Source: a virus
IMG/VR virus record: IMGVR_UViG_3300027413_000016
Location: 1-39,905 of that record
DNA: 39,905 nucleotides
Direction: 5' to 3' (one strand)
This document shows positions 40 through 19,369 of the stretch, piece by piece. The translations under genes were made by a program, and so were the position numbers. The notes under the pieces are model-generated. The model was not told where the DNA came from. It saw only the letters and a list, made by a program, of their open reading frames with translations, and ran no database searches. The stretch's first letter is position 1; each line of letters starts with the position of its first letter.

Positions 40-70
40 GAATATACGAACAATATCTGTGGTAGCCAAA
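40..70 (-). promoter_or_regulatory. Bacteroidetes-type promoter cassette 1
   Basis: Read on the minus strand it has TTTGG (-33 type), a 20-base spacer, and TATATTC (-7 type), followed by a leader containing GTTAAGG and then AAATAAAGGTTATG. The -33 element lies next to the stop codon of the 54-residue gene upstream. The geometry is identical to at least eleven other sites in the window. It should drive the gene leaving the left edge. Confidence 0.75.
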
Positions 71-73
71 TAT

Positions 74-238
74 TTATGCAATTACTTTAAATGTTTTTTT
101 CATACAATCATCAATATGAACTGTGGTAGTTGCTTTATTAGCACCCTGAATTAAAACATTATTACCTTGAATTCTTTTAACTTTGAATGTATCATTTCCA
201 AACCCAAAAACACCAACTAAATCATCTACTTTTATCAT
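74..238 (-). CDS. Hypothetical 54-residue protein
   Basis: Short minus-strand frame of 54 codons starting MIKVDDLVGVFGFGNDTF and ending KVIA. The ATG is preceded by the strongly conserved AAATAAAGGTT context and by promoter cassette 2, and the stop abuts promoter cassette 1, so it is a real single-gene unit. The N-terminal half looks like a small beta-rich (SH3/KOW-like) fold, but this is only an impression. Function unknown. Confidence 0.65.
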   Translation of the reverse strand: MIKVDDLVGVFGFGNDTFKVKRIQGNNVLIQGANKATTTVHIDDCMKKTFKVIA

Positions 239-276
239 AACCTTTATTTATTTATTATTAACCTTAACTTCCCCAT

Positions 277-307
277 GAATATACGAACGAGTTTTTGCTT
301 CTCCAAG
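277..307 (-). promoter_or_regulatory. Promoter cassette 2
   Basis: CTTGG at -33, 20-base spacer, TATATTC at -7, then a GGGGAAGTTAAGG leader. The spacer half (plus-strand 277-312) is identical over 36 bases to cassette 11 at 14596-14631, while the leader half differs, so the cassette looks mosaic. It drives the 54-residue gene at 74-238. Confidence 0.75.
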
Positions 308-324
308 CATTTGCGCAATTGCTT

Positions 325-678
325 TTACCCTTTCTCTGTACCTATAAATCCAGGTATTTTTTCTAATGGATTAGATTCTTTAACTTCAGGCTTTACAATT
401 GTAACATCTTCATATTTAATTTTACCTATTGTCTTTTTACCTAACATATCAAATGTATAAAGTGTAATACAAGTAGGACCAAATTTTTGGACATTCATTG
501 CTTTACCAAAACTTGCATTTTCTGTAATGGCAAAACTTCTTTCATCTGTCGTATCATGACTATAAACTTTAAATTCTTGGATTCTACCTAAAACATCTTT
601 ATGACCACAAGTGAAAACAATATTCTTTTGTGTCATTAATTTTTCTCTAACTACTATATTTTGATTTTTTTTATTCAT
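325..678 (-). CDS. Hypothetical 117-residue protein
   Basis: The first Met is chosen because it follows AAATAAAGGTT directly and lies behind promoter cassette 3; a second Met at residue 15 is the alternative. The protein is mixed and beta-rich with no signal peptide or membrane segment. C24 and H26 in FTCGHKD are not enough for a metal site. The stop lies just upstream of promoter cassette 2. I do not recognise the family. Confidence 0.7.
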   Translation of the reverse strand: MNKKNQNIVVREKLMTQKNIVFTCGHKDVLGRIQEFKVYSHDTTDERSFAITENASFGKAMNVQKFGPTCITLYTFDMLGKKTIGKIKYEDVTIVKPEVKESNPLEKIPGFIGTEKG

Positions 679-705
679 AACCTTTATTTTTTTAACTTAC
701 GATGT

Positions 706-736
706 GAATATACGAACCCTACCTCGGGTAGCCAAA
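706..736 (-). promoter_or_regulatory. Promoter cassette 3
   Basis: TTTGG, 20-base spacer and TATATTC on the minus strand. The spacer contains a short inverted repeat, CTACC-CGA-GGTAG. The leader half (with TCGTAAGTTAAAA) matches cassette 12. It drives the 117-residue gene; upstream, the DUF6884-like gene ends within 20 bases. Confidence 0.75.
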
Positions 737-752
737 TATTTACGCAATTACT

Positions 753-1529
753 TTATGGATTTTTTAAAGAAAATAAAATCCTAGATAATCTATTAGGACC
801 AATAGCAAAACCCTTACTAGATATTGTTTTTAATATTCTGGTTTTAGGTGTATCAATTCCTATTTCTTTAATAATTTCAATTAAATCCTCATCTAATATT
901 TTAGCTTTATTGGGTGACCTATCATATTCAGGACAATCTTTAACCATATCAGTAAAGTAATTATTTATATTATTTTTATCCCACCCTATAGAATCTATAT
1001 TTTCTAAAAAGTGTTTTATTGTTATTGCAGTTGTAGTAATTTTATTACCCCCTAAAACATATCTAAGTTTTAAAGATGTTTTTAATATGTGGGGAGTAAA
1101 ATGTTTTCCTTTAGTATCAGGAGAAAATATATAAAGATTTTTATTATCAATAACAGGTAATAAATCATTTTTTATTGCTTTTATATATGAATTAGAAGCA
1201 TAAAGTATAAATTTATCATTAGGATGACTTTCAATTAATTTTTTAACTGAATTATCTTTATCATAACAAGTAATAGCATCCCAGTATTTGGTTGGGTTTA
1301 ATCCTATATGTCCTATATAATCTTGGCTATCGGGTTTAAATGACAAATTGTAGGGTTTTATTACTTTGTTAGATGAAATTAAACCATTTTGAGCTGAAAG
1401 TATCCAAGTATAATCTACTTTAGATGATATTGCTTTAACTATATCCCAGTATCCTCCTTTATATAAATCAATAGCAGGTGCAGGTATGCTTAGTTTTTTA
1501 GTAGCACAAATTGTTATAAAATGAATCAT
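753..1529 (-). CDS. DUF6884-like protein
   Basis: 258 residues. The first 70 residues carry the pattern I associate with DUF6884: a Cys near the N-terminus (C8) followed by KKL, a PAPAIDLY segment, then ILSAQNGLI and IKPYNLSF around residues 43-63. DUF6884 has no settled function that I know of. The C-terminal part (about 165-258) looks helical and may be a separate domain. Start and stop overlap as TAATG with the MutH/Sau3AI-like gene just upstream, so the two are translationally coupled and probably act together. It is the last gene of an operon reaching back to promoter cassette 4 (4270-4300) through the DNA ligase. The family call is moderate; the coupling is seen directly. Confidence 0.6.
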   Translation of the reverse strand: MIHFITICATKKLSIPAPAIDLYKGGYWDIVKAISSKVDYTWILSAQNGLISSNKVIKPYNLSFKPDSQDYIGHIGLNPTKYWDAITCYDKDNSVKKLIESHPNDKFILYASNSYIKAIKNDLLPVIDNKNLYIFSPDTKGKHFTPHILKTSLKLRYVLGGNKITTTAITIKHFLENIDSIGWDKNNINNYFTDMVKDCPEYDRSPNKAKILDEDLIEIIKEIGIDTPKTRILKTISSKGFAIGPNRLSRILFSLKNP

Positions 1530-2191
1530 TATATTATAGGTTTTAAAAGTCTAGTTATTACGTTGTAATCTAATGTAAAATTGTAAGGTTTAGTAATATA
1601 TTTGATACCCTTTTTAGTTATATATTCTCTATATTTTGTAGTACCTGCTGTTCTTACATGAAGAATTTGGTCTTCACTTAATAATTTAGCTTTACTTTTA
1701 AATTTATTAGCATTTCCTTCACACACTAAATTACGATAATAATTATACTCTTTCTTTATCTGGGGAATATACAAATTTAAATCTATAATTCCAAATCCTA
1801 AAAACTTTCTTTTCAAAACATTTTTATTTTTTGATAATTTGATTATAAACATTTTAGATTTATCTAAAACATGAGAAGTTTCAAAAGTTTCGTCTTCAAT
1901 AGTTGAATAACTAACTGATGTTAAAGACATCTTTTCAAGTGCTTTTTCACCTGTATCATTAAATGTAACGGTTTTAATCTCCCAACCTTTAAAATCCGGT
2001 TCAGGTTTATTATCACCTCTTTTTTCTGTAATAATCCATTCAAATATATCTCCTGCTAATCCTTTACTTTTTATATTAGCATTTTCAACCCAATCTTGGA
2101 GGTCATTTAAGTTAGAATCTTTAAGTATTTTATCTAAACTTTTACCTATTCTTTGGTTAAAAAATTTTATTTGTTCTTCAGTTATTATCAT
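1529..2191 (-). CDS. MutH/Sau3AI-like restriction-type endonuclease
   Basis: 220 residues. Residues 42-73 match the core of the MutH/Sau3AI family: SKGLAGDIFEW (E51, equivalent to the helix glutamate of MutH), then a PEPDF-KGWEIKT block giving D66, E71 and K73 as the D...ExK metal-binding triad. Downstream Lys and beta-rich segments fit the rest of a PD-(D/E)XK fold. MutH and Sau3AI act at GATC; specificity cannot be read from the sequence here. Length is close to MutH (229). The gene overlaps the small gene upstream by 14 bases and is coupled (TAATG) to the DUF6884-like gene. Likely roles are breakdown of host DNA or cutting of competing phage DNA. No partner methyltransferase is seen. Confidence 0.65.
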   Translation of the reverse strand: MIITEEQIKFFNQRIGKSLDKILKDSNLNDLQDWVENANIKSKGLAGDIFEWIITEKRGDNKPEPDFKGWEIKTVTFNDTGEKALEKMSLTSVSYSTIEDETFETSHVLDKSKMFIIKLSKNKNVLKRKFLGFGIIDLNLYIPQIKKEYNYYRNLVCEGNANKFKSKAKLLSEDQILHVRTAGTTKYREYITKKGIKYITKPYNFTLDYNVITRLLKPII

Positions 2192-2315
2192 TTAATTTAA
2201 AATAATTTACACCTTCTTTTGTTGAAGATTGTTGCCAAGGCAAATTATGACCCATTAATTGGTCTAATTCTATAGCCATTTGATTAGACACAAGATAGTC
2301 AATTGTTGTTTTCAT
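2178..2315 (-). CDS. Hypothetical 45-residue protein
   Basis: A 45-codon frame starting MKTTIDYLVSNQMAIELDQL and ending LNDNN. Its stop lies inside the start of the endonuclease gene (14-base overlap), and its start is 8 bases after the stop of the 81-residue gene. It could be a helper of the endonuclease, but that rests on position alone. Confidence 0.5.
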   Translation of the reverse strand: MKTTIDYLVSNQMAIELDQLMGHNLPWQQSSTKEGVNYFKLNDNN

Positions 2316-2323
2316 TACTACTA

Positions 2324-2569
2324 TCAAAATGGTAGTGGGTCATTAACAGTCCAAGTATTAACTGATTCAGGTTCACTAATATTATCTAATGATTGTGTAG
2401 TTAAACTTGCATAAGGACATTTTACAATGTCTGCTACTCTTAAACCATCACTTTTAAATTCTCTGTGTATTGAGTTTTTCATATTATGAGCTTGCTGTCT
2501 TGCTTCATAATCATTTTCAGCGTAAATGTATGTATCAATTACTACTGCATATCGTTTTAAATTTCTCAT
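2324..2569 (-). CDS. Small protein with an SSB-like C-terminal tail
   Basis: 81 residues; basic N-terminal half and an acidic tail ending NDPLPF. Bacterial SSB proteins end in a similar acidic-(I/L)PF tail that recruits DNA repair and replication proteins, and Bacteroidetes SSBs often end DDLPF. The body (about 8-50) does not look like an OB fold and is too short to be an SSB. ATGA overlap with the DNA ligase gene upstream. A second small gene (30931-31158) ends EHPLPF. The tail is seen directly; the interaction role is inferred. Confidence 0.65.
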   Translation of the reverse strand: MRNLKRYAVVIDTYIYAENDYEARQQAHNMKNSIHREFKSDGLRVADIVKCPYASLTTQSLDNISEPESVNTWTVNDPLPF

Positions 2570-3810
2570 ACTGTTCTTTCTTTACCGTGTACTACTTTTA
2601 CTGTTGGAAATCTTAAGCTAATACCACCTTTATCATTGGTAGTTTCTTCAAAATATTGCACTGTTATTATTTTACCTACTATTGAGCCATCCATATATTG
2701 TAAACGTTGTTCTTGGCTCCAACCACTACCAACTTTTACCTTATGACCTTTATGCATTATGTAAACTTGAGCTAACATTTGAATAGTTTCTGATTTACCA
2801 TCTCTAACTACTTCATGATCATCAATATCAAAATCAATAACTTCATATTCAGCATCATAAAATTTCTTTACTTTAACTAAGTTTTTACTTCGTTTACCTT
2901 CATATCCAACATCTTTTCTCAACATTAGCCCTTCCCATTTACCATCAGCAGCCATTTGCTGCCACATATCAAAATGTCTACCATCTATAATAACTGCTTG
3001 TTCAGTATAACGTAAAATATTTGTATCAATATTATCATCTAAAAATGATCTTAGTGTATGTAATCTATCACTTAATATTTCTTTACTCTTTTGATTATTG
3101 AAATCTCTAATATTTAACATATCAAACATCATATAAGCTGGATTTTCTATTTGATGGTCTTTACGTCTTAATTGCTTCATTACACCTTGAAAATCTTCAT
3201 TTCCATTCTCATCTACTAAACAAATCTCACCATCAAATACAGTATTGATAATACCTGTTGCTTCAATAGCATCTTTAACTTTATCCAATGTAGTAAACTC
3301 TTTGCCCATCCTAGAGTATAAAGTGCATTTACCATTTTCATCTGTAATAGCTAAACATCTTACACCATCTAGTTTTCTTGAAGCATACCAATTATCTTCC
3401 CAATTACATTCTTCTTTATATTCTTGAGCTAATGCTACTGAAAATGTAGGTATTAATCCTGGTATTGCTTTATTTATTACTTTGGCTCCAGCTCTAATGC
3501 CTAAATCCTTATCAATAATCTTGTAAATAAGTTCATCACCATAACCATTTACTAATGCTATGGCATCATGACCTGTTACAACTCTTTGATTTAATCTGTC
3601 TAATACTTCAAATACATTTTTAACGTTTTCAGCTTTTAAATGACTATTCTTAATACAAGTTTTACTTGTAACATAGTATTGTTTAAATGGATTATAAGTG
3701 TATTCTAATATTTTATGGATGAAATCACTACTATTTTTTATAATTTCTACTTTGTCATTAGCACTACTTGTGCTACGCATTTGCTCAATAAAACTGTTTA
3801 ATTCTGTCAT
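2566..3810 (-). CDS. ATP-dependent DNA ligase (T4 gp30-like)
   Basis: 414 residues, covering the N-terminal, adenylation and OB domains of a phage ATP ligase; somewhat shorter than T4 gp30 (487). Motif I is KLDG with the adenylated lysine at K146, motif III FDGE at 192-195, motif IV EGLMLRK at 293-299 and motif V KVKK at 313-316. The C-terminal 100 residues hold the OB-fold part. It seals nicks during replication and recombination using ATP. The start follows AAATAAAGGTT; the stop overlaps the next gene as ATGA. It sits mid-operon behind promoter cassette 4. Confidence 0.95.
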   Translation of the reverse strand: MTELNSFIEQMRSTSSANDKVEIIKNSSDFIHKILEYTYNPFKQYYVTSKTCIKNSHLKAENVKNVFEVLDRLNQRVVTGHDAIALVNGYGDELIYKIIDKDLGIRAGAKVINKAIPGLIPTFSVALAQEYKEECNWEDNWYASRKLDGVRCLAITDENGKCTLYSRMGKEFTTLDKVKDAIEATGIINTVFDGEICLVDENGNEDFQGVMKQLRRKDHQIENPAYMMFDMLNIRDFNNQKSKEILSDRLHTLRSFLDDNIDTNILRYTEQAVIIDGRHFDMWQQMAADGKWEGLMLRKDVGYEGKRSKNLVKVKKFYDAEYEVIDFDIDDHEVVRDGKSETIQMLAQVYIMHKGHKVKVGSGWSQEQRLQYMDGSIVGKIITVQYFEETTNDKGGISLRFPTVKVVHGKERTV

Positions 3811-3815
3811 AACCT

Positions 3816-4067
3816 TTATTTATTTTTTATATTGTAACTGTAATTCCAACCTGTATCCTCATCTTCAATTTCTTGCTTCTCAACTTTGTAACCTAATTTA
3901 TCAAATATAGCATAAAATTTATCTTCATAATATAATTCATTCCAATAGCCAAATCTAAACATAATGTATTCTTCACCATCAAATTTATCATATCTTGCTT
4001 CAACTTGGAAATCAGATGATCCGTAATAATCTTGGACGTCTAATAATGTTTCAAATTTTAATCTCAT
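3816..4067 (-). CDS. Hypothetical 83-residue protein
   Basis: Acidic and very aromatic (many Tyr, Phe, Trp), with no membrane segment. The ATG follows AAATAAAGGTT. It lies 5 bases before the DNA ligase start in the same operon. The family is not recognised. Confidence 0.7.
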   Translation of the reverse strand: MRLKFETLLDVQDYYGSSDFQVEARYDKFDGEEYIMFRFGYWNELYYEDKFYAIFDKLGYKVEKQEIEDEDTGWNYSYNIKNK

Positions 4068-4072
4068 AACCT

Positions 4073-4240
4073 TTATTTTAATAAATCTTGAATAATTAAT
4101 TTTTTAAATTCTACACCAACACCTACCTCATTAGCTTCCTTTTGAGCTAATTGAATAGCAGCATCTGCTTTTAATCCACTAGTATAGTTTTTACTTTTAA
4201 AACTATTAAATATATTTTGAGCTTTTTCTAAATTTGTCAT
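4073..4240 (-). CDS. Hypothetical 55-residue protein
   Basis: A 55-codon frame starting MTNLEKAQNIFNSFKSKNYT and ending IIQDLLK; largely helical, slightly basic. AAATAAAGGTT precedes the ATG and promoter cassette 4 lies 30 bases upstream, so it is the first gene of the ligase operon. The stop is within the start context of the next gene. Unknown function. Confidence 0.65.
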   Translation of the reverse strand: MTNLEKAQNIFNSFKSKNYTSGLKADAAIQLAQKEANEVGVGVEFKKLIIQDLLK

Positions 4241-4269
4241 AACCTTTATTTTTTTCTTAACTTCCCCAT

Positions 4270-4300
4270 GAATATACGAAAGAGCTTTCGCTCTTCCAAA
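4270..4300 (-). promoter_or_regulatory. Promoter cassette 4, with hairpin spacer
   Basis: TTTGG, 20-base spacer, TATATTC. The spacer contains a perfect 6-bp stem with a GAAA loop (AAGAGC-GAAA-GCTCTT, 4280-4295). The leader is GGGGAAGTTAAG. It starts the seven-gene operon running through the DNA ligase to the DUF6884-like gene at 753. Confidence 0.75.
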
Positions 4301-4317
4301 TATTTACGCAATTACTT

Positions 4318-4518
4318 TTATTTATTATAAGGTAATTTATAACCTAATTTTTCACAACCTTCTTCAAACTCCACATGAAGGTTATTCATTTCATAATACT
4401 CATCCCAAGTAATAACTGGGTTATCTGAATTTATAGTACAACATAATTCCCAATCATATTGAGATTTACTATTCCAACTCTTATTAACTTGATTTTGTAT
4501 TTTTTCTATTTTATTCAT
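4318..4518 (-). CDS. Hypothetical 66-residue protein
   Basis: Acidic, Trp/Tyr-rich soluble protein; its WDEYYEMNNLHVEFEEGCEK segment is probably helical. Single-gene unit between cassettes 4 and 5, with AAATAAAGGTTATG at its start. Not recognised. Confidence 0.65.
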   Translation of the reverse strand: MNKIEKIQNQVNKSWNSKSQYDWELCCTINSDNPVITWDEYYEMNNLHVEFEEGCEKLGYKLPYNK

Positions 4519-4556
4519 AACCTTTATTTATTTATTTATAACCTTAACTTCCCGGT

Positions 4557-4587
4557 GAATATACGAACAGTATTTCAGGTAACCAAA
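4557..4587 (-). promoter_or_regulatory. Promoter cassette 5
   Basis: TTTGG, 20-base spacer, TATATTC and a CCGGGAAGTTAAGG leader. It is nearly identical to cassette 7 across both leader and spacer. It drives the 66-residue gene at 4318-4518. Confidence 0.75.
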
Positions 4588-4590
4588 TAT

Positions 4591-4977
4591 CTACGCAAAA
4601 ATCTTCCAATCACTTTCACCTTCTATTGCTTCTAGTTCAAATGGATGATTATCATATTCATATCCTTCTTCATCATATAATCGCTTCATTTCATCTCCAT
4701 CTTGAAGGTAATGGATATATTCATGTATTAGTGTTTGGATAACCCATTTTTCATCTGTTGCTTCTGGGTAGTAAATCCAAATGGTATTTGTTTCACGCTC
4801 AAAATCAGCTGCAGGCATGAAATCACCTTCAGCATTATCTATTCCTGTAATACGAGCCCAAATACTATGATGGTAATCTACCTTGGGTGCTTCACCATTA
4901 AACTTGGACTTACCATAATACGCTTGTATAAATGGATAAACCTCTTCTACGATATTTTTAACTTCGTTCTTATACAT
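4591..4977 (-). CDS. Zincin-type HExxH protein
   Basis: 128 residues. HEYIH at residues 85-89 is a zinc-metallopeptidase motif (H85, E86, H89), in a helix preceded by KWVIQTL. A downstream acidic helix (HPFELEAIEG, E114/E116) could supply the third ligand, as in small gluzincin-like phage proteins. There is no signal peptide, so it would act inside the cell. Start and stop overlap as TAATG with the small membrane gene upstream. The protease call rests on this motif only; some HExxH phage proteins have no known substrate. Confidence 0.6.
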   Translation of the reverse strand: MYKNEVKNIVEEVYPFIQAYYGKSKFNGEAPKVDYHHSIWARITGIDNAEGDFMPAADFERETNTIWIYYPEATDEKWVIQTLIHEYIHYLQDGDEMKRLYDEEGYEYDNHPFELEAIEGESDWKIFA

Positions 4978-5105
4978 TATGCTATATTTAAAAGAATAAA
5001 TTTAACACCTAACCAACCAATATAAAGCATAGTAGCAAATGCAATACTATCAACTAAACCTTTAAACTCAAACGAACTATTATATTTTTTAATCAAATTT
5101 TTCAT
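4977..5105 (-). CDS. Small single-pass membrane protein, 42 residues
   Basis: Frame starting MKNLIKKYNSSFEFKGLVDS followed by a hydrophobic segment (about residues 19-40, ending KFILLNIA). AAATAAAGGTT precedes the ATG and promoter cassette 6 lies just upstream. It is coupled by TAATG to the HExxH gene. Confidence 0.6.
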   Translation of the reverse strand: MKNLIKKYNSSFEFKGLVDSIAFATMLYIGWLGVKFILLNIA

Positions 5106-5127
5106 AACCTTTATTTATTTATGCCCT

Positions 5128-5158
5128 AAATATACGAACGGGGTTTGGCTAAGCCAAA
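5128..5158 (-). promoter_or_regulatory. Promoter cassette 6, with palindromic spacer
   Basis: TTTGG, 20-base spacer, TATATTT. The spacer and -33 element form a perfect 21-base palindrome (plus-strand 5141-5161) with two 10-base arms. The GTTAAG leader element is missing. It drives the membrane protein/HExxH pair. The palindrome might also act as a terminator after the DUF932 gene, but no T-run follows. Confidence 0.7.
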
Positions 5159-5180
5159 CCCTTTCGCATAAGTCTTTAAA

Positions 5181-5987
5181 TTACTTTGCAAATTCTAATG
5201 CAACATCAAATAACTCTTTATTAATCTTTTGATCTTGTTTGAAGTTTTTGATTTGTCTAGCTTTTCTAACTTTAGTACCAGCAATATATTCAAAATCACC
5301 ATCAATGATTTTTTCTTGTACTACATTAAATACTGACCATAAATCATTACCCATATCCTCATCTCTAGTAGGATTAAGTAGTTCTTGAAAATCAATCTTG
5401 ATTCTTTTTAACTCATCTTCTTTGAATCTAGTAGCTATTGCTTTTTTAGCAAAACTAACCATTTCATCTTGACCAAGCTCAGTTGCTTGCATTTTATTCA
5501 TTGATTCAACAGTTAAAGGTAATTTTTCAACCATTTCTTTAATCTTAACCTGTAATTCCTCAAATGAATAACCCATATGTCTCATTTTAACATCTTCAAA
5601 CTGTGTCGTTGAAATAACTAAACCATTTTCGCAAATCATTCTAAATAATCCAGCGGTAAATGTAAATGCATTTTTACCATCATGGCTATTTGTTAATAAT
5701 ACTTGTGGAAAAACTGTATCACCACCTTTACCATCAATCTGAACATCTGGATTTCTGAATACTACTAAATGCTTTTGGAAACCGATTGTGCTATTTTTTC
5801 TAGCTTTAACTTCTTTAGCATCAACAACGTCCCAACCTAATGTTCTCATATCGTTAATTACTTTACTAGTAGGAATATGTGTATAATGTTTGGAAACCTC
5901 ATTACTTGGTTTTTCATTAAATACACATGGAGCTTGCTCTGCAATTTGAGCATCATTTAAAAATTCACTTTTTTCTAAATTTAACAT
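5181..5987 (-). CDS. DUF932 family protein
   Basis: 268 residues. The segments YTHIPTSKVINDMRTLGW, a central HLVVFRNPDV, LLTNSHDGKNAFTFTAGLFR and CENGLVIS fit DUF932, common in phages and plasmids and of unknown biochemical role. Some family members are early, abundantly expressed proteins. Its own promoter (cassette 7) and AAATAAAAGTTATG start context suggest separate strong expression. No membrane or signal segment. Confidence 0.8.
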   Translation of the reverse strand: MLNLEKSEFLNDAQIAEQAPCVFNEKPSNEVSKHYTHIPTSKVINDMRTLGWDVVDAKEVKARKNSTIGFQKHLVVFRNPDVQIDGKGGDTVFPQVLLTNSHDGKNAFTFTAGLFRMICENGLVISTTQFEDVKMRHMGYSFEELQVKIKEMVEKLPLTVESMNKMQATELGQDEMVSFAKKAIATRFKEDELKRIKIDFQELLNPTRDEDMGNDLWSVFNVVQEKIIDGDFEYIAGTKVRKARQIKNFKQDQKINKELFDVALEFAK

Positions 5988-6036
5988 AACTTTTATTTTT
6001 TAATTTATGATGTTAAGTACCTCTTAACTTCCCGGT

Positions 6037-6067
6037 GAATATACGAACAGTATTTCAGGTAGCCAAG
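6037..6067 (-). promoter_or_regulatory. Promoter cassette 7
   Basis: CTTGG, 20-base spacer, TATATTC, CCGGGAAGTTAAG leader. It shares about 39 bases with cassette 5. Drives the DUF932 gene alone. Confidence 0.75.
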
Positions 6068-6088
6068 TACTTTACCGGAAGTCTTTAA

Positions 6089-6232: not shown

Positions 6233-6269
6233 TTGTTGACTATACCATATTAAGGCAAATTTGATAAAT

Positions 6270-6581
6270 TTAGATAACTTTGTGATGGTCTAAAATTAAT
6301 AATTCTTTCATCTCATCAGCTAATTCTGACATTGATGTCATATACTCTTTTAATGTGTATACTTTACCACTTGTACCTGTTGGTACATGCTTTTCTCTTA
6401 ATATACTTCTAATTAAATGAGGTAATGACTGGTAATATCCTGATGTTGATTGTGTTTCAGCTACTACTTTTAAATAAGTATGTGTTGTTTCATCTATATG
6501 AATTTCATAAGGCAATATTAGTTTATCCTTAATTAAACACGTCCTTGTTGTACTCCCGCTTGGTCTTCCTTTTCCTGCCAT
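6270..6581 (-). CDS. Hypothetical 103-residue basic protein
   Basis: The basic N-terminus (MAGKGRPSGSTTRT) suggests nucleic-acid binding; the remainder is mixed alpha/beta, including EIHIDETTHTYLKVVAETQ and a helical C-terminus. The length and the small-residue start recall phage-encoded regulators, but I see no clear HTH or RHH motif. Start follows AAAAGTTAT; promoter 8 lies upstream. Confidence 0.6.
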   Translation of the reverse strand: MAGKGRPSGSTTRTCLIKDKLILPYEIHIDETTHTYLKVVAETQSTSGYYQSLPHLIRSILREKHVPTGTSGKVYTLKEYMTSMSELADEMKELLILDHHKVI

Positions 6582-6607
6582 ATAACTTTTATTATTTTGT
6601 TTATCGT

Positions 6608-6638
6608 TAATATACGATTATTATTTGGATTTTCCAAA
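6608..6638 (-). promoter_or_regulatory. Promoter 8, inside the glucosaminidase gene end
   Basis: TTTGG, 20-base spacer, TATATTA, with the same fixed spacing as the cassettes but without their leader. It overlaps the last codons of the glucosaminidase-like gene. Likely drives 6270-6581 and 6089-6232. Confidence 0.6.
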
Positions 6639-7211: not shown

Positions 7212-7212
7212 A

Positions 7213-8083: not shown

Positions 8084-8341
8084 TCATTTTACTTTTAATA
8101 TTACATTTACTGTTGAATACATTATACCTCCAAGTATTACAACTGCAAACATTATTTGATTAGGTATTTCATTTTTAGTTGCTAATACAAATCCACTTAA
8201 AAATATTAGTTTAAGGAATAAACTAGCATATACTATTGAATAACCTATATTGTTAAACTTTTTAAATAATTTAATTAATAAATTTGTTAACACAACCAAA
8301 AACGTTGATCCTGCTAAACCATAAGCTAATGATATAATCAT
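8084..8341 (-). CDS. Small membrane protein, 85 residues
   Basis: Three hydrophobic segments (about 3-22, 34-54, 62-82) separated by short basic turns (KLFKKF). It starts in an ATGA overlap with the acidic 66-residue gene. A holin-like topology is possible, unproven. Confidence 0.65.
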   Translation of the reverse strand: MIISLAYGLAGSTFLVVLTNLLIKLFKKFNNIGYSIVYASLFLKLIFLSGFVLATKNEIPNQIMFAVVILGGIMYSTVNVILKVK

Positions 8342-8538
8342 TCCTCTTCTATTAATTCAGGCCAATCATGGTCTTCTAAAACTTTATCATGTGATAATTC
8401 AAAATCAACTTCATCTAAAACTTCTTCTTGTAAGTCTTCATCACCTGATTTCCATTTTTCTATTTGTTCTGGAGTTAATTCCTCGGTTTCTTCCCATCTG
8501 TAATCAGTGTAAGTAACCATTTTTCTTAATTTTGCCAT
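8338..8538 (-). CDS. Highly acidic 66-residue protein
   Basis: After a basic start (MAKLRKMVTYTDYRW) it is strongly acidic, ending PELIEEE. Such charge is common among DNA mimics and inhibitor proteins of phages, but nothing specific can be claimed. The start follows AATAAAGTTATG. Confidence 0.65.
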   Translation of the reverse strand: MAKLRKMVTYTDYRWEETEELTPEQIEKWKSGDEDLQEEVLDEVDFELSHDKVLEDHDWPELIEEE

Positions 8539-9142: not shown

Positions 9143-9313
9143 CTATATTTCTTTAATATCTAATTTTCTAACTAAATCTTCCCTACCTGGGTAAGCATTT
9201 TGAAATTTTCTAATTTTACTGAATGTTAAATCAGGAATAACTCTAGACACTCCACTAACTGGGTATCCTAATTTATTATAATTTGTAATTGAAATTTTGT
9301 ACCTATTTTTCAT
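9143..9313 (-). CDS. Hypothetical 56-residue basic protein
   Basis: Frame starting MKNRYKISITNYNKLGYPVS and ending REDLVRKLDIKEI. Compact and basic. It follows promoter 9 directly and is the first gene of the run that leads to the glucosaminidase. ATG preceded by CGGTT. Confidence 0.6.
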   Translation of the reverse strand: MKNRYKISITNYNKLGYPVSGVSRVIPDLTFSKIRKFQNAYPGREDLVRKLDIKEI

Positions 9314-9327
9314 AACCGTTTTGGTGG

Positions 9328-9358
9328 GAATATACGAAAAATATTCATATAAGCCACA
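9328..9358 (-). promoter_or_regulatory. Promoter 9
   Basis: TGTGG at the -33 position, 20-base spacer, TATATTC at -7. Same spacing as the cassettes, with a weaker -33 and no GTTAAG leader. Likely drives the eight genes from 9313 down to the glucosaminidase at 6621. Confidence 0.6.
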
Positions 9359-12232: not shown

Positions 12233-12286
12233 TTATATAAAAATTAAAATTTTAGTTATAACGATTATACATACAGTAATGTATGT

Positions 12287-13456
12287 TTAACTTAATCTAT
12301 TTTTAAGATTTTCTCTTAAAGTATTTCTTAAGGGGTTTTTTGTAGATATTTCAAACATAGAGTTTATTTCTTGGTCTAAAGCTTTGTCTTCACCACAACG
12401 ACAATCTCCACTACACCCGCAATCACCTTCATCTAAATCTGATTCATTCATAGGTAAATATTTTTGTCTAATTTCAGGTTCTTCTAGGTGAATTTGAATT
12501 CTATCATCTAAATACTCAGCATCCTTAGCTTCGTCTTTGGTAAGTTCATCTATACCAATAACAAATTTAATTAAATCTTTACCATATGTTTTTACTAAGT
12601 CACCTAGAGTTTTTTTATTAACTGATTCATCCATTCTTCCTCTCTGATAATCAGTCATTCCATCTTTCATATCATCTGAATAGTCACCTTGGCTACGTCT
12701 TGTATAATCTGTTTTAAATTGTTTTTCTGTCTCTCTATTCGCATAACTTAGCATCTCTTGCTTTTGGGCAATACTTAATTCCATCCAAGGTTTGCCATAC
12801 TCATCTCTTGCAATCTTATCCCATTTTTCATCTACTTCATTCATTTCATCTTTAGGCTTATACTCATCATACATTTTATCTAAATCTGATTTGTATGCTA
12901 AAGCTCTTGCAGGTACTTTTATTTCATCTCTTTTACCTAATATAGCAGAATCTTCTAATGGTCTAATGTAAACCATATTTCCATCCTTTCTCATGATTAT
13001 ATGCTCTTCTCCATCGTATATTACAATGTCTTCATCATCATATTTTTGATTTTCTTCTAACATAGCCATACTTAATTCAGATCTTGGATCCATACCAATA
13101 AAATCATCTGATACAGCAAATAATTCAACTACACCATTTTCTAAATCATTAATATCTAAATCTTCTAAATCATAACTATCATTAAGTTTTCTACCTATGA
13201 TTTCCATTTGTCTTAAAGCTTCAGCTGAACTTAATCTTCTAATTTGACCTGCCATTGTTTCTTTACCTAAAGCAATTCCTACACCTGGTCCTGTATCGTA
13301 TTTAATATATGCAGATAGGAAATTAGGATTATTTTTATCTTTTCTAAAACTTGGTTCAGATATTTTTATGTATGAGTCTTTATTCTTTTTGAATCCATCT
13401 TCATTCAATGGATTTCCTAAATGAGCTTCTCTAATAAGTTTTTTAAAATCTTTCAT
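12287..13456 (-). CDS. Hypothetical 389-residue protein, possibly virion-related
   Basis: Acidic soluble protein beginning MKDFKKLIREAHLGNPLNED. Parts: a possibly catalytic-looking but unassigned region 30-100; a charged middle (200-280) with YxRxxxD repeats; and a Cys cluster near residues 350-358 (CGCSGDCRCG) that could bind metal. The MKDFKKLIREA start reminds me of short core or scaffold-related proteins of T4-like phages, but that is a weak impression. Neighbours are small membrane proteins. Confidence 0.65.
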   Translation of the reverse strand: MKDFKKLIREAHLGNPLNEDGFKKNKDSYIKISEPSFRKDKNNPNFLSAYIKYDTGPGVGIALGKETMAGQIRRLSSAEALRQMEIIGRKLNDSYDLEDLDINDLENGVVELFAVSDDFIGMDPRSELSMAMLEENQKYDDEDIVIYDGEEHIIMRKDGNMVYIRPLEDSAILGKRDEIKVPARALAYKSDLDKMYDEYKPKDEMNEVDEKWDKIARDEYGKPWMELSIAQKQEMLSYANRETEKQFKTDYTRRSQGDYSDDMKDGMTDYQRGRMDESVNKKTLGDLVKTYGKDLIKFVIGIDELTKDEAKDAEYLDDRIQIHLEEPEIRQKYLPMNESDLDEGDCGCSGDCRCGEDKALDQEINSMFEISTKNPLRNTLRENLKNRLS

Positions 13457-13472
13457 AAATGTATATTATATG

Positions 13473-13664
13473 CTATAAATATTCAACTACTTCTGCTTCT
13501 TGCACTGTTTCGCAAAATAAGTAATGTGTTTTATTACTTAATACATGATCACAGTGATATATAGTTTCCATAAATTCTTTTATCATGCTTTTATCTGGGA
13601 AATTGTGGTGTCTAATTTCTCTTAGTATGTTGTATAGTTGTCCTTGGTGATGGAAGTATTTCAT
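13473..13664 (-). CDS. Hypothetical 63-residue protein
   Basis: The longer frame opens with TTG inside the upstream gene; the ATG at 13664, in an ATGA overlap with that gene's stop, is preferred. His/Tyr-rich (FHHQGQLYNILREIRHHNF), probably helical, with an acidic C-terminus ending AEVVEYL. No family recognised. Confidence 0.6.
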   Translation of the reverse strand: MKYFHHQGQLYNILREIRHHNFPDKSMIKEFMETIYHCDHVLSNKTHYLFCETVQEAEVVEYL

Positions 13665-14005
13665 TTCCAGAGTACTTGAATGCAAATTAATATTAATGCC
13701 AATGCTAATGATATAAATGTTTTTGTTGTAATACCTTCATTAAAAAAGTGATTAACTAATAAAGCGTAAATTACCATTCCTATTCCAAACCCAACAAATC
13801 TTGCGGGCCATAATAAACCATCTAAACCCATTACTGTATATTTAGTAGCCCATATAAAAAAATAAGAACATGGTATTCCTATTGCTACCATTATCCATTC
13901 GTGTTCTTTAGCCCAGTCCCATTTGAATTGACTATTCAACTGAAACCAAGCTAAAATATGACCTACCATCATAAATAGCACTCCATATAGTAAGTTAATA
14001 TTCAT
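13661..14005 (-). CDS. Conserved-looking four-TM membrane protein
   Basis: 114 residues with TM segments near 5-20, 36-54, 66-86 and 94-112. WDWAKEHEWIMVAIGIPCSYF and GLLWPARFVGFGIGM look like conserved signature stretches; I have an impression of similar proteins in other marine T4-like phages but cannot name the family. Resembles a small inner-membrane transporter half in size, role unknown. Confidence 0.65.
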   Translation of the reverse strand: MNINLLYGVLFMMVGHILAWFQLNSQFKWDWAKEHEWIMVAIGIPCSYFFIWATKYTVMGLDGLLWPARFVGFGIGMVIYALLVNHFFNEGITTKTFISLALALILICIQVLWK

Positions 14006-14006
14006 A

Positions 14007-14258
14007 TTAACCTAATAATAAATTATTATTCTCGAGTCCCACTTTCCAAAATCTCATTAACCATAATTTTCTGGTTTTATTTTCAATAATAGATTCATCA
14101 CTGAACTCATTATTTTCCATAGAATATGTAGCGACCATTGCTATCCCAGAATCAAACCAATCTCTTGCTTCATCCATTTTACCTTCTTTAACTGCTAATT
14201 GACCTTTTTCCCATGCTTTAGAAATTGGGAACTCTGTGTTTTTATCAAATTTAATCAT
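14007..14258 (-). CDS. Hypothetical 83-residue protein
   Basis: Helical; the segment AWEKGQLAVKEGKMDEARDWF looks like one TPR-type helical hairpin. The ATG follows AAATAAAAGTT and promoter cassette 10 lies just upstream. Confidence 0.65.
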   Translation of the reverse strand: MIKFDKNTEFPISKAWEKGQLAVKEGKMDEARDWFDSGIAMVATYSMENNEFSDESIIENKTRKLWLMRFWKVGLENNNLLLG

Positions 14259-14287
14259 AACTTTTATTTATTTTTTAACTATTGTGT

Positions 14288-14318
14288 GAATATACGAACT
14301 TTATTTCAGGTAACCAAA
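14288..14318 (-). promoter_or_regulatory. Promoter cassette 10
   Basis: TTTGG, 20-base spacer, TATATTC, leader with AGTTAAAA. The spacer belongs to the CCTGAAATA subtype shared with cassettes 5, 7, 12 and 13. Drives 14007-14258 and probably the genes beyond it. Confidence 0.75.
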
Positions 14319-14321
14319 TAT

Positions 14322-14546
14322 TTACCTAGAATGGTTTTTATTTTTTCTAGATGAAAATTGCTTACCTCTAGCTGTGTTTTTACCATCAGCACCTTCAATA
14401 TCCATTTTTTCAAACGTTCCTATTGTTAATTCTTGAAGACTAAATCCAGCTGCTTTAACTGCTTTAATTACATTTGCAGGAGTTGCATAATTGCCTGGTA
14501 ATAGTGATTTATTTGTCTTATTGTGTTTTGCTATATATCTAATCAT
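14322..14546 (-). CDS. Hypothetical 74-residue basic protein
   Basis: Basic, with an HTH-like middle (TPANVIKAVKAAGFSLQEL) and a very basic, Ser-rich tail (RGKQFSSRKNKNHSR); likely nucleic-acid binding, inferred from charge only. AAATAAAGGTT precedes the ATG; single-gene unit between cassettes 10 and 11. Confidence 0.65.
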   Translation of the reverse strand: MIRYIAKHNKTNKSLLPGNYATPANVIKAVKAAGFSLQELTIGTFEKMDIEGADGKNTARGKQFSSRKNKNHSR

Positions 14547-14595
14547 AACCTTTATTTTTTAATTTAACGAGTTAAGCGTTTCTTAACTACGTGGT

Positions 14596-14626
14596 GAATA
14601 TACGAACGAGTTTTTGCTTCTCCAAG
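14596..14626 (-). promoter_or_regulatory. Promoter cassette 11
   Basis: CTTGG, 20-base spacer, TATATTC, leader CCACGTAGTTAAG. The spacer half is identical to cassette 2, the leader half to cassette 1: direct evidence of mosaicism. Drives 14322-14546. Confidence 0.75.
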
Positions 14627-14629
14627 CAT

Positions 14630-14746
14630 TTACGCAGATTTCTTTAATTTTTCAATCTTTGCTTTTAAAATAGAAGCAGTGCCTTCATTTCCCATTTGTG
14701 TGTGGAAATCTAATAACTGTTCTAATTCTTTTATTTTATTTAACAT
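14630..14746 (-). CDS. Hypothetical 38-residue helical protein
   Basis: Frame starting MLNKIKELEQLLDFHTQMGN and ending EKLKKSA. AAATAAAGGTT precedes the ATG, and its stop is in the conserved upstream end of cassette 11. Second gene after cassette 12. Probably a short coiled coil. Confidence 0.5.
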   Translation of the reverse strand: MLNKIKELEQLLDFHTQMGNEGTASILKAKIEKLKKSA

Positions 14747-14751
14747 AACCT

Positions 14752-14955
14752 TTATTTTAAAATATTATTATTTAAATGCTTAATTGCATTTTCAATTTCT
14801 TCTTTTTCAACATAATCGAATAATCCAAATTTTAAACCTGTTTCCTCAAAAACTAATTTAACATAATTATCAGCTTCATCATAACTATAACCTTGATTAA
14901 ACACATGCTTTCTACACTCTTCAATTTTTTGACCTAATTTTAAAAATATCTTCAT
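14752..14955 (-). CDS. Hypothetical 67-residue protein
   Basis: Helical protein (MKIFLKLGQKIEECRKHVFN at the start). AAATAAAGGTTATG start context behind cassette 12. Not recognised. Confidence 0.65.
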   Translation of the reverse strand: MKIFLKLGQKIEECRKHVFNQGYSYDEADNYVKLVFEETGLKFGLFDYVEKEEIENAIKHLNNNILK

Positions 14956-14982
14956 AACCTTTATTTTTTTAACTTACGATGT

Positions 14983-15013
14983 AAATATACGAACAATATC
15001 TCAGGTAACCAAA
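14983..15013 (-). promoter_or_regulatory. Promoter cassette 12
   Basis: TTTGG, 20-base spacer, TATATTT, leader TCGTAAGTTAAAA shared with cassette 3 but with a different spacer. The -33 element lies next to the PhoH stop. Drives 14752-14955 and 14630-14746. Confidence 0.75.
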
Positions 15014-15016
15014 TAT

Positions 15017-15679: not shown

Positions 15680-15689
15680 AATATTAATA

Positions 15690-16736: not shown

Positions 16737-17284
16737 TTTTTTCTTTCTTTTATAGGTTGGGTTTTTAGTAAATGGTTTTTAAAAGTATCTTTTTTTTCAT
16801 CTGGAATATGGTGCCAATGCCAAGCTATTGTATTTTTTTTCTCTTCAATTTTTTTCTCAAGATTACTACAACTTTGTTCAAATGAATTAGCCATTTCTTT
16901 ATCAATATAATCTTCAACTTTAATGTCTACATCTAATGCTTCTAAAATTAACCCTACAGTATCTCCACTATTATATAAAACTGAAATTGATTTAAATCTA
17001 TCTTCATCCCCAGTTTCTCTATCTGGGTGGTAGATTTTACTTAGTTGCTTATATAACTTTTTTCCAGGTTTATCTTCTTTAATAGTTTCTTCTTGTTCTT
17101 CTTGCTCTTCCTTAAGATTTTCTATTTTTTCTTTATTGATAGCCTGTTGCCTTATTTTTTCCTCATCAGGGTTATCTTCAAAATCTTGATTGAATTCTTT
17201 AACATATGTTTTTAATAAATTGTTAACATCTTCAAGATCTTCTAGATAAAATTTATATTTATGAATCCACTTCTTATAAGACAT
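16733..17284 (-). CDS. J-domain-like protein
   Basis: 183 residues from the ATG at 17284; the longer frame begins with TTG and is not preferred. After a Glu-rich linker, KKLYKQLSKIYHPDRETGDE carries the HPD tripeptide (86-88) between two helices, as in the J-domain that stimulates Hsp70 ATPase. The rest is coiled coil. The partner would be host DnaK. Together with the phage GroEL, GroES and Hsp20 it suggests a phage chaperone programme. J-domain call is from this motif alone. Confidence 0.65.
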   Translation of the reverse strand: MSYKKWIHKYKFYLEDLEDVNNLLKTYVKEFNQDFEDNPDEEKIRQQAINKEKIENLKEEQEEQEETIKEDKPGKKLYKQLSKIYHPDRETGDEDRFKSISVLYNSGDTVGLILEALDVDIKVEDYIDKEMANSFEQSCSNLEKKIEEKKNTIAWHWHHIPDEKKDTFKNHLLKTQPIKERKK

Positions 17285-17501
17285 ATTTCTCTTTATATTT
17301 TTCAATAAAGCTTTCTCCTATGGATAAATGTAATATTTCTGCTTTGGAGGGAACTCCGGGCAATTTATCTCTTTCAAGACCATCTATAACTTCATCTACG
17401 TTTTTAGTTTTATAAACTTTCATTTTGGTTTTAGCGTTTGAACGGTTTGACGTTTTAAATACTAATACTGTTGGGTATACATATGACTTCTCTCTAGGCA
17501 T
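17274..17501 (-). CDS. Hypothetical 75-residue protein
   Basis: The ATG at 17501 (MPREKSYVYPTVLVFKTSN) is preferred to one 33 bases further upstream because it overlaps the HNH gene by only 8 bases. Basic, mixed alpha/beta. Overlaps the J-domain-like gene by 11 bases. Confidence 0.55.
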   Translation of the reverse strand: MPREKSYVYPTVLVFKTSNRSNAKTKMKVYKTKNVDEVIDGLERDKLPGVPSKAEILHLSIGESFIEKYKEKYVL

Positions 17502-17877
17502 GTTTATGTTTTTTATTAATAAAATCTCCCTCATCTATTGATTTAAATAAATGACAATATTTACAAATTAACTGGTAGTTAGATGGTTGTTCACCTTTTA
17601 ATGTGCCCTTAATTTTTGGGTTAATGTGGTCAACATCCATTCCTTGTACTATATCTTTTAATGTACGATTAGGAAATCGCTTTTGCAAATCATCTTTACA
17701 AATTTCACATATGGTACCTTCCCCTTTTAATATTTTTTCTAGCTTATACATTAACCAAGGTCTTGATGGGGCATTCCTAACCCATTCTTTATATTTGTTA
17801 TGAGTAGAACAAAACTTATATTTTTGAGATTTATTATAAAACTCTGTTTCTATATTACACCAACTGACTTGACACAT
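17494..17877 (-). CDS. HNH endonuclease
   Basis: 127 residues. Zinc knuckle CEIC (57/60) with CKYCH (105/108), the DHI core at 83-85 (MDVDHINPKIKG) and N100 fit an HNH beta-beta-alpha-metal nuclease. An N-terminal CQVSWC / FCSTH pair may bind a second zinc. Free-standing homing-type HNH enzymes are common in T4-like phages. One of three HNH-like genes within 3.1 kb. Confidence 0.8.
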   Translation of the reverse strand: MCQVSWCNIETEFYNKSQKYKFCSTHNKYKEWVRNAPSRPWLMYKLEKILKGEGTICEICKDDLQKRFPNRTLKDIVQGMDVDHINPKIKGTLKGEQPSNYQLICKYCHLFKSIDEGDFINKKHKHA

Positions 17878-17993
17878 CTTTTTCCTTTTTTAGGACCTTT
17901 ATTTTTTTTAGTTTTAATACCATTCATCTCATTATAGACTTCCCAATATAAAGACGATTGTTCTTCACAATAATATCTACCTTTTTTCTTCAT
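17850..17993 (-). CDS. Hypothetical 47-residue basic protein
   Basis: Frame starting MKKKGRYYCEEQSSLYWEVY, with a Lys-rich middle (KTKKNKGPKKGKR) and ending VKSVGVI. It overlaps the HNH start by 28 bases and the 61-residue gene by 17, which is much for this genome, so the call is tentative. Confidence 0.4.
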   Translation of the reverse strand: MKKKGRYYCEEQSSLYWEVYNEMNGIKTKKNKGPKKGKRCVKSVGVI

Positions 17994-18162
17994 TGTTTGA
18001 TTTTTTCCAGTGCCATGCACCTGATCCAATATAATATTCTTTAATGTATCCTAATTTTTCCATTTCATCATCTGCATTTGTACCATTTCTCTTAGCGGCA
18101 GTCATTGCGTAGTAACTATCTAAGCTCATATTATTTTTTATCTTTCTAAACATTTTCTCCAT
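17977..18162 (-). CDS. Hypothetical 61-residue protein
   Basis: Basic, with a Trp-rich GAWHWKK end. It overlaps the preceding HNH gene by 25 bases. No recognised family. Confidence 0.5.
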   Translation of the reverse strand: MEKMFRKIKNNMSLDSYYAMTAAKRNGTNADDEMEKLGYIKEYYIGSGAWHWKKSNNEEKR

Positions 18163-18644
18163 CCCATATTAACAGCAAATATAGCATCACTTTTACTATT
18201 AATATACTTAAGATTTTCATTTTTAACTAAATTATCTAAAAACTTATTTTCTACCCATTCTTCTGTAGAAGCATTTAATTTATTATGCCCCCAATGTCTA
18301 GTTGTTTCTTCTATTGCACTTCTTAAACTTTCTTTTACATGCCAAAAAATATTGTAACTTCCAATATTAGTTCTTCTAATCCATTTATCCATTTCATCAG
18401 GATCATTAACATTGGGAGCTTCTTGATGACAACGATTACATAAAAGCCTATAATTGGAAGGAATATCTTCTCCCTCTAAAGCCGATGGTATAACATGACA
18501 TTTTTCAGTATTTTGACCATCATGTCCACATCTCCAACAATGAGAATGCATTTCTGAGGCATCTACCCCATACCCACACTCATTTATATTTTTCCTTCCC
18601 CATTCTATAATCTGTTTTTTAGTAGTTTTCATACGTTTTCTCAT
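18138..18644 (-). CDS. HNH endonuclease
   Basis: 168 residues. CWRCG (36/39), CHVIP (H50), SNYRLLCNRCH (N64, C69, C72, H73) make an HNH core with structural zinc. The C-terminal half is helical and probably binds DNA. AAATAAAAGTTATG start context. Homing-type or late DNA-processing role cannot be told apart. Confidence 0.8.
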   Translation of the reverse strand: MRKRMKTTKKQIIEWGRKNINECGYGVDASEMHSHCWRCGHDGQNTEKCHVIPSALEGEDIPSNYRLLCNRCHQEAPNVNDPDEMDKWIRRTNIGSYNIFWHVKESLRSAIEETTRHWGHNKLNASTEEWVENKFLDNLVKNENLKYINSKSDAIFAVNMGWRKCLER

Positions 18645-18649
18645 AACTT

Positions 18650-19093
18650 TTATTTTTTAATTTTTAACTCTAGTGATTTAATATGTTTACAACGTCTGTT
18701 TTTAGCCATCCATGTGCCGGGGCAATCACAATGATACTTACCTGAATCTGGGTAGTATCTAGTTGTATACTCAATGTCACTTGAACTGCTCTTATTTGTT
18801 TCTATAATTGGGTCCTTTCGTTTTACAACTTTTGGTTTGATATTTTTAATATCATCTAATGTTGTTTCAGGATGTACCTTTTCCATTGATGGTAATATAA
18901 ACTTATCACCATTATTATCTGTGTATAGTGAGGCACTCAAATATGGGTGCTTCATTTCATAGTAAAATCTTTGTACATTTACAAATTTACCATATCCAGA
19001 TGGGTTGAATGAAAATTGTGAGGTAGGACTATGAACTATCCTAGTTCTTAGATTACCATGCTTGTTTAAATTTTGAAATTTGAATAATGCCAT
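18650..19093 (-). CDS. SWIM zinc-finger protein
   Basis: 147 residues. The C-terminal CDCPGTWMAKNRRCKHIKSLE has the CxC...CxH pattern of a SWIM zinc finger (C122, C124, C135, H137), which binds DNA or protein partners. The N-terminal half (WYL-like beta) is unassigned. In phages such proteins are uncharacterised. Start follows AAAGGTATG. Confidence 0.7.
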   Translation of the reverse strand: MALFKFQNLNKHGNLRTRIVHSPTSQFSFNPSGYGKFVNVQRFYYEMKHPYLSASLYTDNNGDKFILPSMEKVHPETTLDDIKNIKPKVVKRKDPIIETNKSSSSDIEYTTRYYPDSGKYHCDCPGTWMAKNRRCKHIKSLELKIKK

Positions 19094-19102
19094 ACCTTTA
19101 TT

Positions 19103-19321
19103 TTAATGAAAAACTCTACCTGATTCATAAGCTTGCTGTTGAATATACTCATCTGCTAATACATCATAATCTGTACTATCACAAACATTACAGCCTTTAT
19201 TATTACATGCTCCACAATTTACAACTGTACCTGCTGTTCTAGCAAATTCAATCATTTCATCACATATTTGATTTATATTTTTTACTGAATTTCCTCCAAA
19301 CATTTTATCTAATTCACTCAT
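19103..19321 (-). CDS. Small zinc-binding protein with DnaJ-like Cys motif
   Basis: 72 residues. CGACNNKGCNVC (C36, C39, C44, C47) resembles half of a DnaJ-type zinc-finger repeat. Since a J-domain-like gene lies 1.8 kb downstream in the same transcription unit, a split J-protein system is conceivable, but the motif alone is weak. First gene after promoter cassette 13. Confidence 0.65.
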   Translation of the reverse strand: MSELDKMFGGNSVKNINQICDEMIEFARTAGTVVNCGACNNKGCNVCDSTDYDVLADEYIQQQAYESGRVFH

Positions 19322-19338
19322 AACCTTAATTTTGACGT

Positions 19339-19369
19339 GAATATACGAACAATATTTCAGGTAGCCAAG
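19339..19369 (-). promoter_or_regulatory. Promoter cassette 13
   Basis: CTTGG, 20-base spacer, TATATTC; leader CGTCAAAATTAAGGTTATG. It overlaps the last codons of the 114-residue gene upstream. It heads the long run from the zinc-binding gene towards PhoH. Confidence 0.7.

Follow-up and report, generated by a model that had tools for sequence, protein, structure and literature searches.

What is the role of a sequence that recurs, at a fixed geometry, ahead of one small gene after another in a viral genome, and how did so many copies come to be there? The question is raised by IMG/VR virus record IMGVR_UViG_3300027413_000016, which was analysed over its complete length of 39,905 bases (the window) and is classed as linear, a class that often means a fragment. 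Every well-supported gene of the window is on the minus strand, as are 14 repeated units, here termed cassettes, that lie between small genes. The best overall explanation, and a probable one, is that the cassette is a compact intergenic unit that starts a gene, sometimes after stopping the gene before it, and that is exchanged as a module. The host of this phage would belong to the Bacteroidota, judging from the promoter, the type of leader, and the nearest isolate as identified by its DUF932 protein.

A Repeated Unit of Fixed Geometry

Each cassette pairs an upstream TTTGG block with a downstream TATATT block. A first-pass annotation had described twelve minus-strand sites; all of them were found where it had placed them, and two more were added (numbered 1 to 12 below, plus two additional sites). 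The 23-base offset that it gave between tatac and ccaaa on the plus strand is correct. Its 20-base spacer is right when counted from TTTG, but the distance from TTTGG to TATATT is 19 bases, and of its sites with “TTTGG or a close form” the one at 9328 has GTGG in place of TTGG. The upstream side was said to run often into the preceding stop codon, and at related sites the median stop indeed lies 20 nucleotides before TTGG.

On the minus strand of the window, the core TTGG-N15-TTCGTATATT is present 13 times, and on the plus strand it is absent. A similar motif density in shuffled sequence had been named in advance as the outcome that would count against the family, and 300 dinucleotide shuffles produced no core. 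The longer form TTTGG-N19-TATATT was observed 10 times against a shuffle mean of 0.15, and translation starts of the AAAGGTTATG type 15 times against 0.38.

The motif extends well past this record. A scan of viral contigs returned at least 119 stretches, and the addition of relatives found through the DUF932 protein brought the set analysed to 306 non-redundant sites. Among the matches listed from viral contigs, the 15-base spacer is present in 217 of 231 spaced matches, and the TTGG-to-TATATT spacing of 19 occurs at least 304 times, compared with 6–23 times for each other spacing. Whole records carry the motif in 21 of 24 cases, and the reversed-pattern control in none. Cellular genomes (257 gigabases) contain 32 matching stretches of mixed spacing, and 99 Bacteroidia genomes contain 181 matches against 194 for controls, which is chance level. 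The exact motif belongs to viruses.

A search of isolated phages with a 45-nucleotide consensus cassette gave nothing convincing. The DUF932 protein, rather than that search, led to Flavobacterium phage immuto (NC_055915, MW353175; host Flavobacterium sp. LMO8), whose DUF932 protein is 43% identical to that of the window. Immuto carries 24 analogous cassettes at 60.9–76.2 kb, most of them with the leader TATCAATAATTAAAA ahead of different small genes, and in its -7 region TTTA follows TATA. Since the annotated polymerases of immuto belong to family A, this kind of cassette is not bound to one replication system.

Modular Exchange of Cassettes

The first-pass annotation proposed that cassettes spread or recombine as modules with exchange at the -7 element, and the window already contains such combinations. 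Cassettes 2 and 10 (277 and 14596) are the same through TATATTCA and different afterwards. Cassettes 5 and 7 (4557 and 6037) show a single mismatch over the stretch from TTGG to GTTAAG inclusive; they had been called nearly identical throughout, which is incorrect, since they diverge after that point. Cassettes 1 and 10 (40 and 14596), described as having the same leader, share only CACCACGTAGTTAAG and diverge beyond it, which indicates a second junction at GTTAAG.

Relatives supply the stronger evidence, as genes flanking a cassette may be about 99% identical while the leaders differ. In the f1/f11 slot, relatives L059 and L067 match at 99–100% over the gene before the cassette, its upstream half, and its spacer, and at 99% over the gene after it, yet their leaders are only 51% identical, and this slot already contradicts the notion that cassette identity always tracks gene descent. 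L205 and L033 likewise place differing leaders ahead of one gene, and the gene at 4073–4240, led by cassette 4 in the window, has another cassette in L067 and L020. L066 and L088 possess a common upstream half followed by different leaders and genes. One exact 27-nucleotide leader, that of cassettes 3 and 11, precedes six unrelated gene families in relatives. Across 105 ortholog pairs of at least 85% protein identity, leaders are less than 70% identical in 28%. The upstream half alone is common to both members in 19 distinct pairs of sites, and the leader alone in 63; in these pairs the exchanged halves are joined at the conserved -7 block. The order of genes, f3-P-f5-f1-P-f11-P-f12-f0, is maintained, with entire promoter–gene units absent, replaced, or moved in relatives. 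Cassettes and their halves are exchanged modularly between unrelated small genes.

A RecA-like recombinase is encoded in 11 of 12 records. Neither the window nor 11 of 12 other records contains a tyrosine recombinase or integrase, the positive record (G014) being without the exact motif. Given the generality of RecA-like proteins and the absence of integrases from the 12 searched records with cassettes or variants of them, the recombination enzyme and route would likely be those of homologous recombination or gene conversion. Integrase or transposition was rejected as a route, no such recombinase being found in the cassette-bearing records searched. The cassette-led gene family f17 (268–269 amino acids; L163 at about 13214–14020, L161 from 11222) appears to coincide with a RecA-type ATPase match.

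Similar copies could also arise by convergence, with selection on promoter and translation-start sequence keeping them alike and no cassette exchange taking place. The -33, -7, and start blocks do look functional and would be constrained anyway, but against this stand exact leaders common to unrelated genes, and near-identical genes whose leaders and spacers are unrelated while the halves to which these are joined are identical. Furthermore, leaders of non-homologous genes are at least 85% identical in 8.7% of pairs from the same record and in 2.0% of pairs between records. Convergence is highly improbable and is already largely refuted. Exchange itself might alternatively be site-specific, in an integron-like or transposable gene-cassette system whose integrase would use hairpins as recombination sites. 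A hairpin does stand between some small genes and the next gene, and promoter–gene units have been gained and lost in the f1...f0 slot. The hairpin sequences, however, are unconserved, the junctions fall in two blocks, -7 and GTTAAG, instead of at a single point, and the tyrosine recombinase to which integron gene cassettes are linked is absent from the window and from every searched record with the exact motif, so that this mechanism appears scarcely credible.

Putative Promoter and Leader

With the first T of TATATT numbered -12, TATATT occupies -12 to -7 and TTGG -35 to -32. The consensus over the 306 sites reads AAAAT, TTGG, CTaCCnnAAATAT-G, TTCG, TATATT, C or T, A, C, and G, followed by a C-poor, A-rich leader. 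A-rich tracts lie about 18 and 29 bases ahead of TTGG (about -54 and -64). At the predicted +1, the C content falls sharply from 30% to 1%. Primary-sigma promoters of Bacteroidota have their transcription start 4–5 nucleotides beyond the -7 element; at the cassettes, the predicted +1 is marked by this shift in composition. The predicted leader has a median length of 34 nucleotides and ends mostly in AGGTT or AAGTT before the ATG. Starts of the AAAGGTTATG type are found at 12 of 14 genes scored as cassette-led and at 6 of 56 other window genes, which indicates that the translation start belongs to the cassette; one of the 14 (31314–31685) was scored from a match at 31784 that lies in coding sequence, and a cassette probably does not lead it. 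These features give the cassette the look of a strong promoter, and its transcription is presumably early.

In Flavobacterium johnsoniae, the consensus -7 element is TAHHTTTG, with nearly invariant T at -6 and G at -5, and the mean leader is 33 nucleotides (PMC6847099). The cassette resembles this primary-sigma promoter in the -33 TTTG, TA at -12/-11, TT at -8/-7, a leader of about 33–34 nucleotides, and the lack of a Shine–Dalgarno sequence. In contrast, it has A at -5 in 94% of the 306 sites, C or T at -6, and a very strict -33 box and spacing, whereas the -33 box of host genes is hardly visible. The annotation's view that the units are built on the Bacteroidetes promoter fits the two-box layout but not the base at -5. 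Host-like TTTG-N18-21-TAnnTTTG sequences number 4 in the window against 2.4 by chance. Promoters of the sigma70 type (TTGACA/TATAAT, early type) show no excess over shuffles in the window, the units being TTGG-N19-TATATT.

Recognition of a two-box promoter requires a sigma factor that possesses region 4. Of 11 large records, none gave a match to a family of sigma region 4, and four gave region 2 matches, only one of which is above the cut-off. The absence of region 4 together with the two-box promoter points to the host sigma, and the most likely reader is host RNA polymerase with the Bacteroidota primary sigma factor.

Hairpins and Putative Terminators

The earlier annotation overlooked a further component, namely hairpins across the -33 element. 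Folding of the upstream arm with the spacer gives a mean of -5.75 kcal/mol at the 306 sites, compared with -4.38 kcal/mol when halves are permuted (z = -13.6); for the window sites alone, equally good pairing is found in 1% of permutations. Permutation of halves was used in place of a column-by-column covariation test, which is uninformative because the register of the hairpin varies among sites. In strong examples, of which CGCGGTAAC-atttg-GTTACCGCG-TTTTTTTTT-CGTATATTC in L066 is one, the -33 box lies within the loop or the stem. Immuto hairpins, for example GTTGCCTC-TTCG-GAGGCAAT-TTC, also take in the -33 box (z = -5.4); its hairpin-bearing cassettes include those at 64498, 67961, 68714, 69173, 69566, and 70242. 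In 21 sites, against 1.9 expected with halves permuted, the stem directly ends at a T-rich tail, and about 7% of sites have the complete form of an intrinsic terminator, with the U-tract inside the promoter spacer. A second type, a 5′-terminal stem-loop of the leader, is also enriched (z < -2 in 16% versus about 4%; e.g., 14570–14588 and 6012–6028). In a minority of copies, then, a putative terminator sits where one would be needed and has bases in common with the next promoter.

Several observations weigh against a stop-then-start unit read by the host enzyme. Full terminators are a minority and most spacers end merely in TTCG; the clear hairpins of the window are confined to 5128, 4270, and weakly 706 and 14288; and the bases at -6 and -5 make the assignment of the host sigma insecure. 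Scans for generic terminators and sigma-70 promoters give no excess over shuffles in the window, although they contain no model of this promoter. Initiation and termination at the cassettes are predictions from sequence. The hairpins might be operators or chance palindromes and the units promoter–leader cassettes with no terminator role, given that a long U-tract is absent at most sites and clear stems exist in just 4 of 14 window sites. Yet pairing of the arms is kept while their sequence changes, here and in immuto, unlike a fixed-sequence operator, and stems directly at a T-rich tail far exceed expectation; on balance, cassettes devoid of terminators are unlikely, if a serious competitor. 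The reader, for its part, might be a phage-specific or phage-modified polymerase (a phage sigma, a co-activator, or an altered host enzyme) instead of the ordinary host primary sigma holoenzyme. The -7 box is systematically off the host consensus, the TTCG block ahead of TATATT is strongly conserved, and the motif stays at chance level in Bacteroidia genomes. The related clade L178 also has ATGT for TTCG in several cassettes with TTGG and TATATTTA kept, which suggests lineage-wide homogenisation of cassettes; at the L178 locus (22, 955, 1438, 9923), a close relative, GATGTTATATTTA replaces GTTCGTATATTCA. The sigma searches of the 11 large records (no region 4, and one region 2 match above the cut-off) speak against such an enzyme, the two-box layout and upstream A-tracts are typical of multisubunit RNA polymerase with a primary-class sigma, and the TTTA retained by immuto is nearer the host sequence. 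A modified polymerase is therefore rather unlikely.

Relation to Known Promoter Cassettes

The PeSLs (promoter early stem loop cassettes) of T4 combine promoter and terminator in one unit and mediate shuffling (Arbiol 2010 and Comeau 2014, as cited in PMC4503421 and PMC3950731). Both systems place many copies of a cassette, composite in T4 and putatively so here, among the accessory genes of large T4-like phages, and both are linked to modular shuffling. Near-identical repeats between small genes in a variable region of a T4-like phage are present here as the 14 window units, and gene modules recombine between related phages. The host sigma70 early promoter of the PeSL is not found; the present putative promoter differs in being of the Bacteroidota -33/-7 type, the hairpin overlaps the -33 box with the U-tract in the promoter spacer so that predicted terminator and promoter share bases, the cassettes carry a non-Shine–Dalgarno translation start, and half-cassette exchange at the -7 block is visible. 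By analogy, the cassettes may be likened to a Bacteroidota counterpart of the T4 PeSLs; given their different type of promoter, they are classed as analogous and not as PeSLs. The resemblance that the first-pass annotation noted is closer than it supposed, given the hairpin and terminator component.

Repeated intergenic promoter motifs ahead of many genes are also known from haloarchaeal viruses. The motif of HGTV-1 is similar, includes an inverted repeat, and has been compared with PeSLs (PMC3950731), and the intergenic repeats of HF2 were tested and carry promoters (PMC8707807). Unlike the cassettes, these are archaeal TATA-box promoters that depend on different host machinery. No description of such cassettes in Bacteroidota (Bacteroidetes) phages was found in the literature searched, the coverage of which is incomplete.

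The Cassettes and Genes of the Window

All cassettes listed here are on the minus strand. Cassette 1 (TTTGG-N19-TATATTC, 40–70) has its leader at 4–39 and a gene start at 1–3, where the record ends. Cassette 2 (277–306; leader 239–276) leads a 54-amino-acid gene at 74–238. Cassette 3 (706–736; leader 679–705; gene 325–678) has a short hairpin, CTACC-CGA-GGTAG, at 719–731, and cassette 4 (4270–4300; leader 4241–4269; gene 4073–4240) has a spacer hairpin, AAGAGC-GAAA-GCTCTT, at 4280–4295. Cassette 5 (4557–4587; leader 4519–4556; gene 4318–4518) is followed by cassette 6 (5128–5158; leader 5106–5127; gene 4977–5105), whose strong hairpin GGGTTTGGC-TTA-GCCAAACCC (5141–5161, -15.7 kcal/mol) takes in the -33 element. 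Cassette 7 (6037–6066; leader 5988–6036) includes the stem-loop GTTAAG-aggta-CTTAAC (6012–6028) and leads the DUF932 gene (5181–5987). One additional site, TTTGG-N19-TATATT with ATCG preceding TATATT, is at 6609–6637 (leader 6582–6608; gene 6270–6581). Cassette 8, with its weak -33 element (GTGG), is at 9328–9357 (leader 9314–9327; gene 9143–9313). In cassette 9 (14288–14318; leader 14259–14287; gene 14007–14258), the hairpin AGGTAA-atatttgg-TTACCT (14308–14327) holds the -33 element within its loop. Cassette 10 (14596–14625; leader 14547–14595; gene 14322–14546) has the 5′ stem-loop AGTTAAG-aaacg-CTTAACT (14570–14588), and cassette 11 (14983–15013; gene 14752–14955) has a leader (14956–14982) equal to that of cassette 3. 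Cassette 12 is at 19339–19368 (leader 19322–19338; gene 19103–19321). The other additional site, of the same geometry, is at 33372–33400 (leader 33357–33371) ahead of the clamp-loader gene (32433–33356).

Spaced matches at 1765 and 31777–31805 lie inside coding sequence and were excluded from the count. The latter is an exact TTGG-N15-TTCGTATATT match on the minus strand within gene 31687–32130, where the chance expectation is about zero, and could represent a promoter internal to the gene or a relic of conversion. Cassette-type starts (AAAGGTTATG or AAAGTTATG) with no promoter ahead occur at genes 2566–3810, 3816–4067, 8338–8538, and 18138–18644, possibly as leader-only remnants. The window ends at a cassette (1–3), and the contigs L162, L041, and L108 also have ends at or adjoining cassettes, as expected if repeats break metagenome assemblies.

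The small cassette genes have no match in Pfam or PHROG, and no known RNA family was found. Genes for DUF6884 (753–1529) and a MutH-like protein (1529–2191) adjoin the cassette array. T4-like replication genes comprise the clamp loader (PHROG 168) and a B-family DNA polymerase (PHROG 262; 37376–39697) split over two genes, which are separated by a small gene at 38350–38613. Other genes encode GroEL/GroES, Hsp20, DNA ligase, PhoH, and a glycosylation block.

Proposed Mechanism and Significance

The cassette is proposed to be a compact intergenic control unit of about 60–100 bp, with overlapped parts, placed directly after the stop codon of the preceding gene. In a subset of copies, an RNA hairpin would span or abut the -33 element; the clearest of these also have a U-tract in the spacer, which would make the hairpin the intrinsic terminator of the upstream gene. 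Host RNA polymerase with the Bacteroidota primary sigma would most likely initiate from TTGG and TATATT, and a short A-rich leader of about 34 nucleotides, sometimes with a 5′ stem-loop, would lead to the fixed translation start AAAGGTTATG. A single unit would thereby start the next small gene and sometimes close the previous one. Because the copies have the -33/-7 blocks and the start block in common, homologous recombination or gene conversion could swap cassettes entire or by halves, along with the small genes that lie between them, and accessory genes would then come and go as self-contained units.

A broader proposal is tentative and may well prove wrong. Separately from T4, large Bacteroidota phages may have arrived by evolution at a one-piece stop-then-start element, with the -33 box in its terminator hairpin and a U-tract running into the -7 box. 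Such an element would close one gene, open the following one, and act as the point of crossover at which single accessory genes are swapped; it would be one of the main routes by which these phages exchange genes.

With the motif, putative transcription units can be picked out by the hundreds in uncultured viruses whose host would be Bacteroidota, and immuto on Flavobacterium sp. LMO8 makes the cassette testable in culture. The motif could also be a compact expression part for Flavobacterium genetics. Promoter–terminator cassettes in T4, haloarchaeal viruses, and Bacteroidota phages suggest a repeated origin of such elements as exchange points. The small genes of these viruses would move as ready-to-express units, and a switch that swaps between unrelated small genes would explain how such viruses exchange their accessory genes.

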